Source of the DNA: a bacterium
Lineage (GTDB): Bacteria; Campylobacterota; Campylobacteria; Campylobacterales; Sulfurimonadaceae
Reading direction: 5' to 3'
Length of the DNA: 36,184 nt
Assembly (NCBI GenBank): GCA_018824305.1
Contig: JAHJGM010000021.1
Span: forward strand, 1 to 36,184
The stretch's first letter is position 1, and the number at the start of each line of letters is the position of its first letter. The translations under genes were made by a program, and so were the position numbers. The notes below the pieces were generated by a model. The model saw only the letters and a list, made by a program, of their open reading frames with translations, did no database searches and was not told the origin of the DNA. Shown here one piece after another: positions 507 to 32,470 of the stretch.

Positions 507-902
507 GTTCTATGTACTTTTTTCTCCGCATAAAAGTACCAAAAAGCTCTTGCAACGGCTTCGAGCTTGACTTCGTCAAGTTCCCAAGAAATAGTAAATC
601 TATTCCTAAAAACATAAAACTCGGGCAAGCCCTCAAACAGTTATATTTTTTTAACGTCATGGCTTTACTATTTCTCGGCTCTGCAGATGTTGCAATCGAC
701 GTAGAAATTTTATTGCCTGTTTGTGTCACTTTGGATTTTAGTCTTTTTGACCGAGTGGAAGCGTGAAGAAAATCAAACTGTTTGAGGGAACATCGTGACC
801 GAGTTTTTGATTTTTAGATGTAGCGACCGAAAAAGGCGTTAAAAAATCCAACCGTGACACGATTTTTTATGCTACTTTTTTCTAAAAAAAGTGGCATAGA
901 AC
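507..902. repeat. Interspersed repeat element, two inverted half-copies (MITE-like)
   Basis: This fills most of the 397-920 gap, where I see no credible gene. The outer ends are inverted: GTTCTATG at 507-514 and CATAGAAC at 895-902. Just inside each end is a hairpin, GTACTTTT/AAAAGTAC at 514-539 and GCTACTTTTTT...AAAAAAGTGGC at 871-895. Deeper in, CCCTCAAACAGTT (630-642) is matched by AACTGTTTGAGGG (776-788) in inverse orientation. The left part (about 507-645) is therefore a degenerate inverted copy of the right part. The right part (about 670-902) is clearly homologous to 19375-19595. Similar ORF-like repeats with terminal poly-T/poly-A hairpins are, as I recall, scattered through many proteobacterial genomes. 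No transposase is present, so any mobility would have to be in trans. Confidence 0.75.
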
Positions 903-4989: not shown

Positions 4990-7143
4990 TTGAGCCGATT
5001 AAATTTAGAAAAGATAAAACATTTTCATAGTGTTGACTCGGCTACAGATTATTTATTTAAACAGATCGAACATTCGGCAAAGTTAAAAGAAGCCCTTGAC
5101 TTTGCTGCCAAAGCTCACGAAGGCCAAATTAGAAAAAGTGGTGAGCCCTACATAATACATCCCATTCTCGTTTCTTCCATCGTAGCATCAATTACAAATG
5201 ACGAGTCTATGGCGATCGCCGCACTTTTACATGATATCGTTGAAGATACGGATACATCGGTTGAAGAGATATCAAACCGTTTTGGTAGCGATGTCGCTCA
5301 TCTCGTCGAGGGATTGACCAAGATAGATATTATCCGTGATGCCGAACTTATTCCCTCATCATCCGATGAAAAACTCATCGTCTCCGCACTCTCATTCAGA
5401 AAGATGCTTGTTGCAAGTATCCATGATGTCAGAGTTCTTGTCGTAAAATTGTGTGACAGGCTCCACAACATGCTCACATTAGATGCTCTGCCACCCTATA
5501 AGCAGCATCGCATCGCCGAAGAGACGTTGGTCGTTTATGGACCGATCGCGCATAGACTCGGGATCTCATTTCTTAAAAATATGCTCGAAGATCTTAGCTT
5601 TTCCTATCTGTTTAAAGAGGAAAAGCACTATATCGATAACTATCTCGATACAAACTACAGGGAGCTGGAAACAAAACTCGATGAGTTTAAGCAGTCCGTT
5701 TCAAAGCTTTTGGTCCAAAATGGCTACTGTGAAGATGATTTTGAGATACTCAGCCGTGTAAAACATAAGTACTCTATCTACCTAAAGATGCAGAGAAAAG
5801 GGATAAGTATAGATGAAGTCCTTGATCTTTTAGCTATCAGGATCTTGGCCAAAAACAAGATAGACTGTTACAAGATACTTGGTATTGTCCATCTGCATTT
5901 TAAACCTCTTGCTTCGAGATTTAAAGATTACATCGCCATAGCAAAAGAGAACGGTTATCAGACGATCCATACTTCCGTTTTTTTTAATCACGTTATATTT
6001 GAGGTACAGATCCGTACATTTCAGATGCATAAAACGGCAGAATACGGTGTCGCTGCCCACTGGAAATATAAAAACGGCGGCAATGAGATAAGTCTTGAGT
6101 GGCTGAAAAATCTTCAATATCAAAACGAGTCCGTTGAAGATTTTTATGAGATGATAAAAAACGATCTTTACAGTGAAGATATCAGTGTCTTCTCACCAAA
6201 GGGCGATGCCTATACGCTTCCAAGAGGTGCAGTCGCATTGGATTTTGCTTATGCAGTTCACTCAAAAGTAGGAGATTGTGCATCAGCTTGTCTTGTCAAT
6301 AAAGAAAGAGTTTCTCTTCTTTCTGAGTTACAAAACGGGGATATAGTCAATATTATAACAGACAAGGAAACTATCAGCAGGTGCAGCTGGATAGATGCCG
6401 TTCAAACATCCAGAGCAAAGACATATATGAAAACACTTTGTAACTCAAAGTTTAAACATATAGATTCTCTGGCTAGTATCAGCATAGTCGCAACGGTCAT
6501 GGGACTGAACAACTCGCGTGTAGATGAATGGTTCACTGCTCATAATTGCAGTGAAGCCAGATTGAAAATACCAAATGACCTCAATCAGTTAAAAGAGACG
6601 ATAACCAAATATGTTGAGGATCTAAGCACCAATCAGAGATTTTCAAGTTTCTTGACAAGAAGAAAATTCAAGTTCAAAGAGAGTGTGTACCAAGGCGTAA
6701 AAGTTGTCAGCAATAAATCTATTAACGGTCTGATCTTTGATTATTGTTGTCACCCCAAAATGAGTGATCCTATAGTAGGGATACTGCACGGTTCTAAAGT
6801 GCATATACATCACAAGATGTGCCAAAATGCACTTCAGCAGATCAAAGCGTATGAACCTATGGTCTTTGTAAAATGGGAAGACAAAAAAGTCTATCATTAC
6901 CATATCATCGTGAGCCTTCAAAACGGTAAGGGCGCTCTTGCGAACTTTTTGACCTATTTGGCGAAAATCGATATTGAGATCATGAGTATTGTTTTAGGCA
7001 AAGAAAAAGTCGATCATGTCCACTATTGTGAGATCGATTTTCACTCTATGGAAGCAAACATTTATCAACTACAAGGTAAAATTGAGAAAAAAGTTAAAGT
7101 CATAAATCTGGTAAGAACAGATGATGTTTATAAGAAAGATTAA
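4990..7143 (+). CDS. spoT: Bifunctional (p)ppGpp synthetase/hydrolase, RelA/SpoT family
   Basis: A 717-residue long RSH enzyme that makes and degrades (p)ppGpp. The hydrolase (HD) domain appears intact, with H57, H81-D82, E85-D86 and N160 in the expected places. The synthetase domain has RFKD at 310-313 (the Arg-x-Lys-Asp form of bifunctional enzymes), NGYQTIHT, and E338 in FEVQIRT. A TGS domain follows at about 398-460, a Cys-Cys segment (YCCHPK) near 580, and a C-terminal ACT domain at about 640-717. The start is a TTG after a poor Shine-Dalgarno sequence (AAAGAAAA), implying low translation. As in other Campylobacterota this is probably the only long RSH protein, but that cannot be checked here. 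Confidence 0.95.
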   Translation: MSRLNLEKIKHFHSVDSATDYLFKQIEHSAKLKEALDFAAKAHEGQIRKSGEPYIIHPILVSSIVASITNDESMAIAALLHDIVEDTDTSVEEISNRFGSDVAHLVEGLTKIDIIRDAELIPSSSDEKLIVSALSFRKMLVASIHDVRVLVVKLCDRLHNMLTLDALPPYKQHRIAEETLVVYGPIAHRLGISFLKNMLEDLSFSYLFKEEKHYIDNYLDTNYRELETKLDEFKQSVSKLLVQNGYCEDDFEILSRVKHKYSIYLKMQRKGISIDEVLDLLAIRILAKNKIDCYKILGIVHLHFKPLASRFKDYIAIAKENGYQTIHTSVFFNHVIFEVQIRTFQMHKTAEYGVAAHWKYKNGGNEISLEWLKNLQYQNESVEDFYEMIKNDLYSEDISVFSPKGDAYTLPRGAVALDFAYAVHSKVGDCASACLVNKERVSLLSELQNGDIVNIITDKETISRCSWIDAVQTSRAKTYMKTLCNSKFKHIDSLASISIVATVMGLNNSRVDEWFTAHNCSEARLKIPNDLNQLKETITKYVEDLSTNQRFSSFLTRRKFKFKESVYQGVKVVSNKSINGLIFDYCCHPKMSDPIVGILHGSKVHIHHKMCQNALQQIKAYEPMVFVKWEDKKVYHYHIIVSLQNGKGALANFLTYLAKIDIEIMSIVLGKEKVDHVHYCEIDFHSMEANIYQLQGKIEKKVKVINLVRTDDVYKKD

Positions 7144-7157
7144 GAATTAGGATAGAG

Positions 7158-8360
7158 ATGATAAAAGAGGCGTTGAGAGAGATAAGTCGTGGCACAGCAG
7201 AGATAATAGATAATGACGCAATAGTGAAATTAGTAACGAACTATTTTCAAAAGGGTGAGACTTATACAGTAAAAGCAGGTTTTGACCCGACTGCACCGGA
7301 CCTTCATTTAGGGCACACCGTTCTTTTACAAAAATTGGCGACTTTTCAAAAATATGGAGCGAAAATACAGTTTCTTATAGGTGACTTTACAGCTCAGATC
7401 GGTGATCCGACAGGCAAGAGTGTCACAAGAAAAACACTAAGTGCCGTGCAGATACAAGAGAATGCAAAAAGCTACAAGGATCAGGTATTTAAGATACTCG
7501 ATCCTCTTAAAACGGAAGTTGTCTTTAACTCCGAGTGGATAAATGCTCTTGGTGCTTCGGGGATGCTTTCTCTCACGACTACCTTTAACGTAGCCAGAAT
7601 GCTTGAGCGCGATGATTTTGATAAAAGATACAAAAGCGGTACATCGATCTCTATCAGCGAGTTTATTTATCCGCTTCTCCAAGGGTATGACAGTGTTCAC
7701 TTAAAAAGCGATATCGAGATAGGCGGGACTGATCAAAAGTTCAACCTTTTGATGGGTCGTCATTTGCAACGTGCTTATGAGATAGGAAAAGAGCAGTCTG
7801 TACTGATGATGCCTATATTAGAGGGCTTGGACGGTGTCCAGAAGATGAGTAAATCTCTTAATAACTACATCGGTGTGGCTGATGAGCCTAATGATATGTT
7901 CGGAAAAGTGCTGAGTATATCCGATGAACTTATGTGGAGATATTACGAGCTTTTGAGTGCAAAGAGTTTAGACGAGATCGAAGCACTTAAAAACGGTGTA
8001 AATGACGGCTCATTGCATCCTAAAAAAGTGAAAGAGGAGTTAGGTCTAGAGATCATTGAAAGATTTCATTCCAAAGATGCTGCAATAGGTGCAAAAGAGG
8101 AGTTTGAGAGAGTACATGCAAACAATGAAATACCTACGGATATAGAAGAATTTGAACTTTTGGAGTCTCCGATCTGGATCGCCAAAGCCTTAGTCGAATG
8201 TAAATTAGAACCGTCAACTTCACAAGCCCGTAGAGATATTAAGCAAGGTGCTGTTAAAATAAACCAAGATAAAGTCGAAGATGATCAGTTACAGATTGAA
8301 AGTGGCGAGTATATTCTACAAGTCGGAAAAAGAAAGTTTGCAAAAGCAAGGGTTAAATGA
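7158..8360 (+). CDS. tyrS: Tyrosyl-tRNA synthetase
   Basis: A 400-residue class I synthetase charging tRNA-Tyr in the cytoplasm. The HIGH-type motif is HLGH at 50-53 and the KMSKS loop is exact at 229-233. A C-terminal S4-like RNA-binding segment starts near residue 335 (SQARRDIKQGAVKIN). Size and motifs fit the TyrZ-like subgroup that carries a true KMSKS. It follows spoT by 14 bp and overlaps the next gene by 4 bp (ATGA), indicating translational coupling. Confidence 0.96.
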   Translation: MIKEALREISRGTAEIIDNDAIVKLVTNYFQKGETYTVKAGFDPTAPDLHLGHTVLLQKLATFQKYGAKIQFLIGDFTAQIGDPTGKSVTRKTLSAVQIQENAKSYKDQVFKILDPLKTEVVFNSEWINALGASGMLSLTTTFNVARMLERDDFDKRYKSGTSISISEFIYPLLQGYDSVHLKSDIEIGGTDQKFNLLMGRHLQRAYEIGKEQSVLMMPILEGLDGVQKMSKSLNNYIGVADEPNDMFGKVLSISDELMWRYYELLSAKSLDEIEALKNGVNDGSLHPKKVKEELGLEIIERFHSKDAAIGAKEEFERVHANNEIPTDIEEFELLESPIWIAKALVECKLEPSTSQARRDIKQGAVKINQDKVEDDQLQIESGEYILQVGKRKFAKARVK

Positions 8361-9451
8361 TGAGTTATAAATCTGTACAAATAGGTAAATATAAAATACA
8401 AAAACCTATCATTCAAGGTGGTATGGGTGTCGGAATAAGTTGGGATAAACTAGCCGGAACAGTATCAAAAGAGGGTGGATTAGGTGTTATTAGTGCAGTA
8501 GGGACCGGTTATTATGAAGATAAAGCGTATGCAAAGCGTTTAGTCGCACAAAGACCCTTAGAAGCTGAAAACTTTTACTCAAAAGAGGGCTTTACGGCTA
8601 TTATCAAGAATGCAAGAAAAATATGCGGGAAAAAACCTCTTGCTGCCAATATCTTGTATGCGATCAATGATTATGGACGTGTGGTAAAAGATGCTTGTGA
8701 AGCCGGAATAGATATCATCATCACAGGTGCAGGACTTCCGACAAACATGCCGGAATTCACTGAAGATTATCCTGATGTCGCGCTCGTTCCTATCGTTTCA
8801 TCTCCAAAGGCTTTGGCAATTATCTGTAAAAGATGGCAAAAAAGATATAATCGTCTTCCCGATGCAGTGGTTTTAGAAGGCCCAAAAAGCGGTGGACACC
8901 AAGGTTTTACTTATGAGCAGTGTGCTATGGAAGAGTTTCAATTGGAAAATCTTGTAGCACCTGTTGTAGAAGAAGCTAAAAAATGGGGAAATATCCCTGT
9001 TTTTGCAGCCGGAGGGATCTGGGATAAAAAAGATATCGACGAGATGATGGCTCTTGGTGCTGCAGGCGTTCAGATGGGTACAAGATTTATCGGTACGCAT
9101 GAGTGTGACGCCCATGATAATTTCAAACAAGTCCTTTTAGACGCAAAAGAGGAAGATATACAGCTTATGGCGTCGCCTGTCGGATATCCGGCTCGCGGTG
9201 TCAAAACAAATCTTACCTCTTTGGTCGAGAAAAGAGAGGGACCTGCGATCAAGTGTATCTCAAATTGTGTCGCTCCCTGTCATCGCGGAGTCGAGGCAAA
9301 AGCAGTCGGTTTTTGTATAGCAGACAGACTCAGTGATGCTTATGTCGGTAATTTAGAGTTTGGACTCTTCTTCTCAGGGACAAACGGATACCGCTTAGAT
9401 AAAATCATTTCGGTAAAAGAACTCATGGACAAACTGGTAAATGGTGAATAA
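8357..9451 (+). CDS. NAD(P)H-dependent flavin oxidoreductase / nitronate monooxygenase family
   Basis: A 364-residue FMN-dependent TIM-barrel enzyme. The N-terminus carries the family QGGMGVGIS segment. The proposed catalytic His is H181 in GGHQG, and the FMN phosphate-binding region is AAGGIWDKKDI...GAAGVQMGTRFI. The same fold includes nitronate monooxygenase (detoxifying propionate 3-nitronate) and FabK-type enoyl-ACP reductase; sequence alone does not settle which. A cysteine cluster (CISNCVAPC near residue 300) is notable, as it could bind metal. Two in-frame ATGs (8357 and 8360) are possible starts. The gene overlaps tyrS and precedes the amidase by 7 bp. Confidence 0.85.
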   Translation: MMSYKSVQIGKYKIQKPIIQGGMGVGISWDKLAGTVSKEGGLGVISAVGTGYYEDKAYAKRLVAQRPLEAENFYSKEGFTAIIKNARKICGKKPLAANILYAINDYGRVVKDACEAGIDIIITGAGLPTNMPEFTEDYPDVALVPIVSSPKALAIICKRWQKRYNRLPDAVVLEGPKSGGHQGFTYEQCAMEEFQLENLVAPVVEEAKKWGNIPVFAAGGIWDKKDIDEMMALGAAGVQMGTRFIGTHECDAHDNFKQVLLDAKEEDIQLMASPVGYPARGVKTNLTSLVEKREGPAIKCISNCVAPCHRGVEAKAVGFCIADRLSDAYVGNLEFGLFFSGTNGYRLDKIISVKELMDKLVNGE

Positions 9452-9458
9452 AATTTGA

Positions 9459-10847
9459 ATGTTTAGGTTTCTTTTATCATTTTTTTTATTAGTAAACTTA
9501 CTCGGTGCAACTGAAAATCAGGATATTTTGGCAAGAGCAGATGCTTTAGCCAGATCTGCTAAGACAAGTGATCTTTTTAAATCATATAACGACTACAAAA
9601 ACCTATATCTTCGCTCTATCATGAGTGATGATGACTCCTTAAAAATAAAATCGCTAAACGGTATCGTTGTTACAGGTAAAGAGTTACATATAGATGTATC
9701 TGAGTACTCACAGGAACTACGGGAACTAAACTCAAAAAAAACATATAAAACTTCTGACGGAACAAAAAAAACAAATACACAGCCCATATTACTTAGTTCA
9801 CTATCAAGATTGGAATCTATAAAATGGGACGACAATGATCTGGTATTGAGTTTTGACAGTGAACTAAAATCAGATCAGATTAAATACTTTGTGCTTCATG
9901 ATAATGTGAAAAACAGATACAGATACGTGTTTGACATCGATTCATCATCTATTACAAATAGTAAAGTCCTGACTAAAAGAGGCATTTCCCGTATAAATCT
10001 AAATCAATATAATCCAAAAACGGTTAGACTTGTTTTTGAAGACAGTGAAAAGATCAATATGCATTTTAGTTTGGATAAAAATGATTTGACGATCAGTTTA
10101 TTGCTAAAAGAGGAGAAAAAGTTTCAACCCAATGTAGCAAAAATAGTACAAAAAAGCTCTAAAAACAATAAGAACAAGATAATCGTGATCGATCCAGGTC
10201 ATGGAGGAAAAGATTCGGGTGCGATAGGATATAGACGTTATTATGAAAAAAACTTAGTTTTGAGTATCGCTCACGAATTAAGTTCAGCTCTAAAGAAACG
10301 CGGTTATACAGTTTATATGACAAGAGATAAAGATGTGTTTGTAAAACTGAAAGATCGTACGGCCTACGCAAATAATAAAGATGCCGATCTTTTTATATCC
10401 ATACATGCAAATGCGGTTTGCAGCTCTAAAGCAGAAAAAGCCTGTGGACTTGAGACATATTTTCTCTCTCCTTCAAGAAGTGCCAGAGCAACATCTGTCG
10501 CAGAACTGGAAAACTCGGCTGATCTTTCGGATATGAACGGTTATGGCAAATCGACATTTTTAAAATTTACCACAAATCTGACACGTATCGCATCAAATAA
10601 GCTTGCCATAGACCTGCAGCGCGGAATGCTCGGCAATCTTAGAAAATACCATAAAGATGTCGTAGATGCCGGAGTCAGAGAGGGACCGTTCTGGGTACTG
10701 GTAGGTGCTCAGATGCCCGCAGTCCTTGTAGAAGTCGGATTTATTACAAATCCTGATGAAGCTAAAAAGTTGGTCAATAAGACATATGAAAGAAATTTAG
10801 CTTATGGTTTGGCAAATGGGGTAGAGCGTTATTTTATGAATAACTGA
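9459..10847 (+). CDS. N-acetylmuramoyl-L-alanine amidase (Amidase_3)
   Basis: A 462-residue periplasmic zinc amidase that cleaves the lactyl-peptide bond of peptidoglycan, usually during daughter-cell separation. The signal peptide covers residues 1-16. An AMIN-like region precedes the catalytic domain at about 65-215. The catalytic part begins at IIVIDPGHGGKDSGA, with zinc ligands H248, E263 and H316 and catalytic E425 in VLVEVGF. An insertion between H316 and E425 (about 320-390) resembles the regulatory helix region of AmiC-type enzymes. It is the last gene of the operon and is followed by an intrinsic terminator at 10872. The homologue in C. jejuni sits in the same place and is called AmiA. 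Confidence 0.93.
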   Translation: MFRFLLSFFLLVNLLGATENQDILARADALARSAKTSDLFKSYNDYKNLYLRSIMSDDDSLKIKSLNGIVVTGKELHIDVSEYSQELRELNSKKTYKTSDGTKKTNTQPILLSSLSRLESIKWDDNDLVLSFDSELKSDQIKYFVLHDNVKNRYRYVFDIDSSSITNSKVLTKRGISRINLNQYNPKTVRLVFEDSEKINMHFSLDKNDLTISLLLKEEKKFQPNVAKIVQKSSKNNKNKIIVIDPGHGGKDSGAIGYRRYYEKNLVLSIAHELSSALKKRGYTVYMTRDKDVFVKLKDRTAYANNKDADLFISIHANAVCSSKAEKACGLETYFLSPSRSARATSVAELENSADLSDMNGYGKSTFLKFTTNLTRIASNKLAIDLQRGMLGNLRKYHKDVVDAGVREGPFWVLVGAQMPAVLVEVGFITNPDEAKKLVNKTYERNLAYGLANGVERYFMNN

Positions 10848-19341: not shown

Positions 19342-19351
19342 TTACATGTAA
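19342..19351. repeat. TTACATGTAA palindrome in the trpC-HEPN spacer
   Basis: An exact copy in the 19207-19704 gap. This gap otherwise holds the solo repeat half (19375-19595), a variant palindrome GTACATGTAA at 19609, and the promoter of the next gene. Confidence 0.85.
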
Positions 19352-19374
19352 AGACTTCATTTCATATCTTTCAT

Positions 19375-19595
19375 ATTTCTTGGCTCTATAGATATTGTAA
19401 CTGACATAACAAGTTTTGTTGTCCATGTGTGGCACTTTGGATTTTAGTCTTTTTGACCAAGAGGAGTCGTTAAGAAAATGCAACTGTTTGAGGAGCGAAG
19501 CCCGAGTTTTGCATTTTTAGACGAAGCGACCGAAAAAAGGCGTAAAGAAATCCTACCGTGACACGATTTTTGGTTACTTTTTCTAAAAAAGTGAC
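19375..19595 (+). repeat. Interspersed repeat element, solo half-copy
   Basis: Collinear with 670-895. Shared blocks include ATTTC(T/C)TGGCTCT-like left ends, CTTTGGATTTTAGTCTTTTT, AACTGTTTGAGG, GCGACCGAAAAA and CCGTGACACGATTTTT. It ends in the same kind of poly-T/poly-A hairpin (GTTACTTTTTCTAAAAAAGTGAC at 19573-19595). By eye the identity is about 75%. The inverted left half seen at 507-645 is not present here. Confidence 0.75.
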
Positions 19596-19663
19596 AAAGA
19601 GAAAGCCTGTACATGTAAGCAGATTTATTTATTTATACATTTTGTCATTTCGGAATAAATGAA

Positions 19664-19704: not shown

Positions 19705-20130
19705 ATGAATGAGATTCTAAATATTAATGCTCATCTTAAATATGTTGAATTTCTTCTTTATATATTTGATTATGAAAAAGATGATTTAACACTTGGAGAA
19801 ATACGAAAACAGTTTTTTGAAAAATTTGGAACAAATCATGATTTACTAAATCAGAATTTCGGCATTTATAGATTGCTCTCATTGATTTTGATAAAAGAAG
19901 AATATAAAAATCAAAAAGTTACCCTAGAAGGTGATATTCAAAAAATTAAAATAATTCGAGATGCTATTGCTCATCATAAGTTTACAATTAACGAGCAAGG
20001 TTATACATTTACAAGCAATTCTGGAACAGTGTCATTGAACTATGATGAATTTCAAAAGTTCATACATAAAATTGAGAATGATTTTTATGGTCAGAAACTA
20101 ACAAATCAAATGGATTCAATTAAAAAGTAA
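19705..20130 (+). CDS. Hypothetical protein with HEPN-like Rx4H motif
   Basis: A 141-residue, largely helical cytoplasmic protein. The segment IIRDAIAHHKF (R85-x4-H90) matches the Rx4-6H catalytic motif of HEPN-domain ribonucleases, placed at the start of a C-terminal helix as in that superfamily. No antitoxin-like partner gene (for example a MNT nucleotidyltransferase) is adjacent. Codon use is more AT-rich than in neighbouring genes, and it lies among repeats, which suggests acquisition. The HEPN assignment rests on one motif and on helical character; it could instead be an unrelated helical protein. Confidence 0.6.
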   Translation: MNEILNINAHLKYVEFLLYIFDYEKDDLTLGEIRKQFFEKFGTNHDLLNQNFGIYRLLSLILIKEEYKNQKVTLEGDIQKIKIIRDAIAHHKFTINEQGYTFTSNSGTVSLNYDEFQKFIHKIENDFYGQKLTNQMDSIKK

Positions 20131-20161: not shown

Positions 20162-20187
20162 TTACATGTAAGAACTCTTACATGTAA
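20162..20187. terminator. Paired TTACATGTAA hairpin between convergent genes
   Basis: Two exact palindromes are arranged as TTACATGTAAG-AACT-CTTACATGTAA, an 11-bp perfect stem with a 4-nt loop. It lies in the 68-bp space between the HEPN-like gene (plus) and yqeY (minus). The same geometry recurs at 32445-32470. A bidirectional terminator role is inferred from position; there is no canonical T-run. Confidence 0.55.
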
Positions 20188-32444: not shown

Positions 32445-32470
32445 TTACATGTAAGAAAACTTACATGTAA
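32445..32470. terminator. Paired TTACATGTAA hairpin between the helicase gene and gspF
   Basis: TTACATGTAAG-AAAA-CTTACATGTAA, an 11-bp perfect stem with a 4-nt loop, sits in the 37-bp gap between convergent genes. It has the same design as 20162-20187 with a different loop. It is probably a bidirectional 3'-end structure. Confidence 0.6.

Follow-up and report, generated by a model that had tools for sequence, protein, structure and literature searches.

The question raised by this locus is whether a 390-base, strongly folded and non-coding stretch at positions 514–900 is a mobile element or a repeat kept for a cellular function. It is located in 36,184 nucleotides of DNA from a member of the Sulfurimonadaceae, which were analyzed as a whole and are referred to here as the window. 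The stretch was found to consist of two homologous nested-hairpin units of about 185 nucleotides that face away from each other. Unit L occupies 514–704 on the plus strand (profile match 190 bits, aligned with 20 others) and unit R occupies 716–900 on the minus strand (profile match 170 bits, aligned with 12 others). The short centre between them (705–715) is the gap between both profile matches. Each unit carries a T/A-rich terminal hairpin at its outer end. In L this hairpin (GTAC-T6 ... A4-GTAC, 514–539) was identified from its sequence, its inverted repeat and its covarying pairs, and in R (865–901) from an inverted repeat (865–881/885–901, 88% complementary). L also contains a small covarying hairpin, CTTGAC-TTC-GTCAAG (566–580), in which both sides change in the alignment (A4 columns 91–105 to 96–100). 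The core hairpin was located by pattern match in L at 607–656 on the plus strand (TAAAA N5 AAACTC ... TCAAACAG N5 TTTT) and in R at 762–816 on the minus strand.

Inverted arms were identified at 630–656/762–788 (27 nucleotides, 85% complementary) and at 606–627/796–817 (22 nucleotides, 82% complementary). The fold of 505–905 (401 nucleotides) had an energy of -119.1 kcal/mol; dinucleotide shuffles gave -84.3 ± 5.5 (z = -6.35), and none of 100 equalled it. This is in agreement with the first-pass annotation, which had reported the inverted structure, a hairpin at the end of each half and a further copy at 19.4 kb. Its description of the left part as an inverted, degenerate copy of the right part was borne out at the level of profile models, which match one another along the greater part of the two halves, whereas BLAST of the left half against the inverted right half gave a match confined to the inner core (606–656, 75%). 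Since the L profile matches R units and vice versa, the halves are regarded as homologous, diverged copies of one unit. The pairing of the outer ends, GTTCTATG/CATAGAAC, did not hold as a feature of the family: in 10 full copies the complementarity of a copy's own outer flanks was no better than that of swapped flanks (mean 7.5 vs 6.9), and no copy-specific outer stem was seen in the genus.

The copy at 19.4 kb had been described as a solo half at 19375–19595. It does contain an R unit (19422–19600, minus strand, profile match 155.8 bits) with 79% identity to the right half by BLAST (query 4–241 of 246) and a core hairpin found by pattern match (19468–19519, minus strand). It also contains about 45 nucleotides resembling L (19362–19406, plus strand), with a weak profile match of 12.2 bits, and 19362–19600 looks like a truncated element rather than a simple half. 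An open reading frame of 141 aa (19705–20130) adjoining this copy gave a HEPN hit that was weak and fell short of the cut-off (PF18733, E = 1.2e-4). At the corresponding site in another genome (L086, G001:C98, approximately 5260–10608) there is a 5.3-kb insert with open reading frames of 331, 903, and 281 aa.

BLAST with the right half located arms at six places of the own genome (two on C25 and one each on C30, C31, C28, and C66); a seventh place (C33) has a lone terminal hairpin. The approximately 80 nucleotides at 427–513 of the window, which lead from a palindrome to the L hairpin, recur beside this lone hairpin (L051). Matches at E ≤ 0.001 were found in 14 of 41 genomes, comprising the own genome and 40 relatives, and six of the eight genomes of the same genus had matches, G004 and G005 being without. 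Further copies, whose lack would have spoken against the first-pass annotation, are thus present. They take the form of L-R dimers, L without R, L-gene-L (L048 in G006) and lone terminal hairpins. The L048 arrangement (7706–9018) runs palindrome, L, a 263-aa open reading frame without Pfam match, inverted L, palindrome; it is symmetric and cassette-like. Apart from this one composite, no version of the element that bears a gene was noticed in passing. A different hairpin-ended repeat with a GCTACTTTTTCTAAAAAAGTGGC end was seen in G017, where at least seven copies with ordinary genes between them lie within 20 kb (L057, C1:1509000–1528900); the strict core pattern is absent from this genome.

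The core follows the pattern TAAAA-N5-AAACTC, small hairpin, TCARACAR-N5-TTTTYTTHACG, in which both N5 segments are free in sequence yet complementary. A covariation check of the hairpins, which the first-pass annotation had proposed, revealed compensating stem changes. In all loci numbered 38–77 and 86 upward, plus the window, 37 of 57 distinct N5 pairs were fully Watson-Crick at the four variable positions, while 2000 shuffles gave a mean of 1.4 fully paired and a maximum of 7. Both sides were changed in 17 of 45 predicted pairs of the L units (n = 21) and in 4 of 30 of the R units (n = 13); because sequences within one genome are related, such cell counts are not independent and the test on distinct pairs is fairer. 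The loop boxes of the core are conserved across phyla and the loop lengths vary freely. GACG (CGTC on the other strand) was seen by eye near the inner end in 12 of 21 L units and was not obvious in R units. Small secondary inserts were observed at shared positions within the arms (L049 with L050, L044 with L054), which suggests that another short repeat has entered hairpin loops.

The non-pairs of the core stem were unevenly distributed, with 18 A.C and 4 G.T (p = 0.004). The corresponding cells were 18 and 3 for L units and 3 and 0 for R units, and the skew was absent from the small hairpin of the inner loop (A.C 8, G.T 7). An A.C on the written strand corresponds to a G.U on the other, so the skew suggests folding of the complementary strand, and the folded single strand probably matters.

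The exact core pattern was found in 11 of 397 sampled Campylobacterota genomes, the own genome having the most matches (nine), and the reversed control was never found. A scan of one genome per species, covering 84,980 species, gave at least 117 matching stretches, of which 80 were listed. Among the matches listed were Sulfurimonas, Arcobacter, Helicobacteraceae MAGs, Lachnospiraceae, Peptoniphilus and Deltaproteobacteria, together with a Thermotoga MAG, Neomarinimicrobiota, Ignavibacteriae, Sphingobacterium, Flavobacterium and Tannerella. Phyla with the core hairpin beyond Campylobacterota include, among these matches, Firmicutes, Bacteroidota and Neomarinimicrobiota; a phylum represented by a single genome, such as Thermotoga, is weak evidence because MAG bins can be mis-assigned. 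The core pattern occurred 1 to 21 times in 12 of the listed genomes, and in the loci printed from several other phyla the usual form was not a dimer but one unit with its terminal hairpin. Within the collections searched the element was found in bacterial genomes only: viral contigs had no match to the exact core pattern, and BLAST searches of plasmids and phages with the window element gave none. Rfam release 15 gave no matches in the window at gathering score, and for 20 cross-phylum loci the sole match was an unrelated FMN riboswitch. No description of the element was found in the open-access literature searched, where its sequence words gave an unrelated match only; most subscription journals lie outside this literature and an earlier description is possible.

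Eight Lachnospiraceae loci (L090, L095, L103, L121, L132, L142, L153, and L161) have near-identical cores within long complementary inverted flanks that are specific to each copy. The 80 listed loci include 12 from Lachnospiraceae, and the flanks were compared for 10 of these; the remaining two lie on contig stretches that begin within the flank. Eight of the 10 had an own-flank score of at least 25 (25–36), compared to a mean of 7.9 and a maximum of 21 for swapped flanks; L139 (11) and L162 (6) were apparently mis-trimmed by the boundary rule. It is as if these units occupied the loops of hairpins that were already there, or were themselves the cause of an inverted duplication.

In the window the palindrome TTACATGTAA lies to the left of the element, about 80 nucleotides outside L (427–436), directly outside R (906–915), and beside the truncated copy (19342–19351), which has TACATGTA on its other side (19610–19617). 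When up to two mismatches were allowed, the palindrome was found within 45 nucleotides outside 22 of 32 unit ends, compared to 6 of 128 control stretches. The window contains 12 occurrences where 0.04 are expected, including those at 20162–20187 and 32445–32470, and the genome contains 380 compared to 6 for the reversed control. Of 41 genomes, 11 have at least 48 occurrences each, and none of the others has more than 6. G004, G005, G009, G011, and G012 are rich in the palindrome and without arms by BLAST; it was therefore rejected as an integral part of the element and is taken to be a flanking target or neighbor. It may possibly be an uptake tag or a protein site. Pairs of the form CTTACATGTAAG-n4-CTTACATGTAAG are terminator-like in appearance.

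Copies were found to occupy recurring chromosomal sites, termed A–H, in genomes of the same genus. Site D adjoins the side of one gene that faces an rRNA, read from its sequence as 5S. G000, G003, and G006 have the element at this site; in G001, G002, and G007 the site is empty and the gene end continues toward the rRNA, and no arm was visible in the G005 stretch. The orientation in G000 is opposite to that in G003 and G006, and no target-site duplication was seen by eye in this between-species comparison. As the compared species are only about 75–85% identical, loss and gain at site D are indistinguishable. Arms of one genome cluster together (p = 0.014 for L and 0.029 for R) and those of one site do not (p = 0.40 and 0.37), which fits movement or gene conversion. 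The first-pass annotation had described the element as one without transposase. In a search for Y1_Tnp (PF01797), none was found in the copy-bearing genomes G000, G001, G002, and G003, while G006 had one and G007 had one below the curated cut-off. Mobilization by a Y1/RAYT enzyme of the own genome was therefore rejected.

MITEs are short and non-coding, have inverted ends and lack their own transposase. The element resembles them in its inverted ends, each full copy having a terminal hairpin at either end. No target duplication was seen by eye at site D, where different species were compared, and no parent transposon was recognised. The attC sites of integrons and pdif modules are imperfect palindromes near mobile accessory genes, a likeness shared by the present element, which is much larger and at most sites has one arm per cargo. 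REPs of the GTAG and CGTC super-families are hairpins of 20–40 bp that have an unpaired GTAG or CGTC tag at one end, and those with CGTC are said to have no transposase dedicated to them (Di Nocera et al., 2013, PMC3733652). The element is similar to REP/BIME in being interspersed and intergenic, downstream of genes that mostly converge or run in one direction, in forming inverted dimers, in its complementary stem changes and in its presence in several phyla. In place of a single 20–40 bp palindrome it has units of approximately 185 nucleotides in which hairpins are nested, internal boxes are conserved and the terminal hairpin stands apart, and the Y1 tyrosine transposase of REPs with RAYT was not found in G000–G003. 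Because of its size, nested architecture and internal boxes, and the lack of a Y1 enzyme in the own genome, it falls outside REP as defined in PMC3733652. BOX, RUP, and SPRITE are structured, non-coding interspersed repeats of pneumococci that were judged parasitic and slow-moving (Croucher et al., 2011, PMC3049150). By description, the element is likewise structured, non-coding and interspersed; they are nearly confined to a few streptococci, whereas the core described here spans phyla.

A functional structured RNA or 3'-end element, such as a terminator or stability element, would be transcribed on one strand, fold and be kept for the upstream genes. The strong covariation with conserved loop boxes, the strand-specific wobble and the large stem-loop followed by a T run that the favored strand reads in each unit all agree with this, as does an enrichment of convergent-gene intervals. 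Among the 80 listed loci of at least 117 stretches, cross-phylum copies were found in 25 convergent, 24 tandem, and 6 divergent contexts, with 2 inside open reading frames and 26 at a locus edge, compared to a background of 65 convergent, 265 tandem, and 69 divergent (Fisher p = 5e-6). In the genus and its nearest relatives the numbers were 14 tandem, 6 convergent, 0 divergent, and 5 edge. However, among the matches listed the strand favored by wobble runs with the genes in only 8 of 24 tandem contexts and against them in 16, and a terminator in sense orientation is therefore not supported; a simple terminator scan of 380–960 gave one site where 0.3 are expected. The neighbors in other phyla are unrelated, ordinary genes, and no recurrent family was found among 87 neighbors searched of 122 found at the loci listed. 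With the patchy occurrence of the element (11 of 397 genomes) and no Rfam family, we regard this explanation, the main rival to a mobile repeat, as rather unlikely. Still less probable is that the pairing is a by-product of palindrome correction in DNA, by template switching between inverted arms, with no selection for a folded strand involved. Such correction readily affects long inverted arms, G.T intermediates are very few on the strand as written, and the inner-loop hairpin has no strand skew; yet the process is strand-symmetric, in conflict with the A.C excess in the core stem, and the loop boxes are conserved across phyla. We consider it very unlikely. A decayed protein gene or a piece of a known insertion sequence is extremely unlikely. 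Open reading frames of 84–146 aa do span the element, but free loop lengths and compensating stem pairs are not the behavior of a decayed gene and no Pfam family recurs among the cross-phylum neighbors of the matches listed, in line with the first-pass annotation, which saw no credible protein.

The arms might also mark the boundary of a hot spot for accessory genes, serving as recombination sites or homology arms for defense and toxin genes and resembling integrons or pdif modules in effect. The same sites have arms with gene content differing by genome, and 20 of 42 length differences of at least 400 bp between orthologous stretches were located at arms. These sites were, however, selected for BLAST-detected arms, and the arms themselves contribute to the length differences. 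The L048 composite, flanked by two palindromes, also fits, whereas for most cargo a single side carries an arm. Neighbors in the genus include defense- or toxin-like genes (Mrr-helicase, HEPN, MazF, PIN, NACHT, AbiH, RloA/RloB, a Septu-like AAA+HNH pair, Macro, and a further HEPN), and neighbors at L063, L065, L039, L048, and L049 had no Pfam match. PADLOC matches were plentiful both in 44 neighbors and in 90 distant control open reading frames, and as both are rich in promiscuous helicase and ATPase models the tally shows nothing; a general link to defense genes was rejected. With ordinary neighbors in other phyla, a link to defense genes is suggestive within this genus, and a boundary function of the arms is unlikely.

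A repeat family with homologous halves, conserved boxes with compensating stems, presence and absence at a site, and intergenic, mostly downstream placement is best explained, with moderate confidence, as a non-autonomous mobile repeat dimer of REP/BIME-like type, with a trans-acting factor working on its folded single strand. The first-pass annotation had left the choice between a non-autonomous element and a functional repeat; the further copies and compensating stems support this pair of readings, and the mobile one is favored. The unit would be recognized as a folded single strand of DNA or RNA, and a factor supplied in trans would copy or move it into regions 3' of genes. Insertion together with recombination between the inverted ends may then give rise to L-R dimers, L-L dimers and single units, a mode of action like that of REP/BIME on a larger scale. 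Against mobility, orthologous sites are re-used in several genomes, unlike random insertion, and the grouping of arms by genome is weak and could be produced by gene conversion. More tentatively, the element could belong to a previously unnamed class that crosses phyla, in which the folded single strand is the substrate of a putative mobilizing factor targeting hairpins at gene 3' ends; these would be found here beside or between TTACATGTAA palindromes, and in Lachnospiraceae inside the copy-specific long inverted repeats.

A core that recurs in several phyla, has no linked gene and was not detected in the collections of phages, plasmids and viral contigs points either to a host function held in common or to a mobilizing enzyme that has escaped recognition. 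The core pattern provides a concrete, searchable signature for finding such a factor. In its own genus, the element marks sites where accessory and defense-like genes differ between species.
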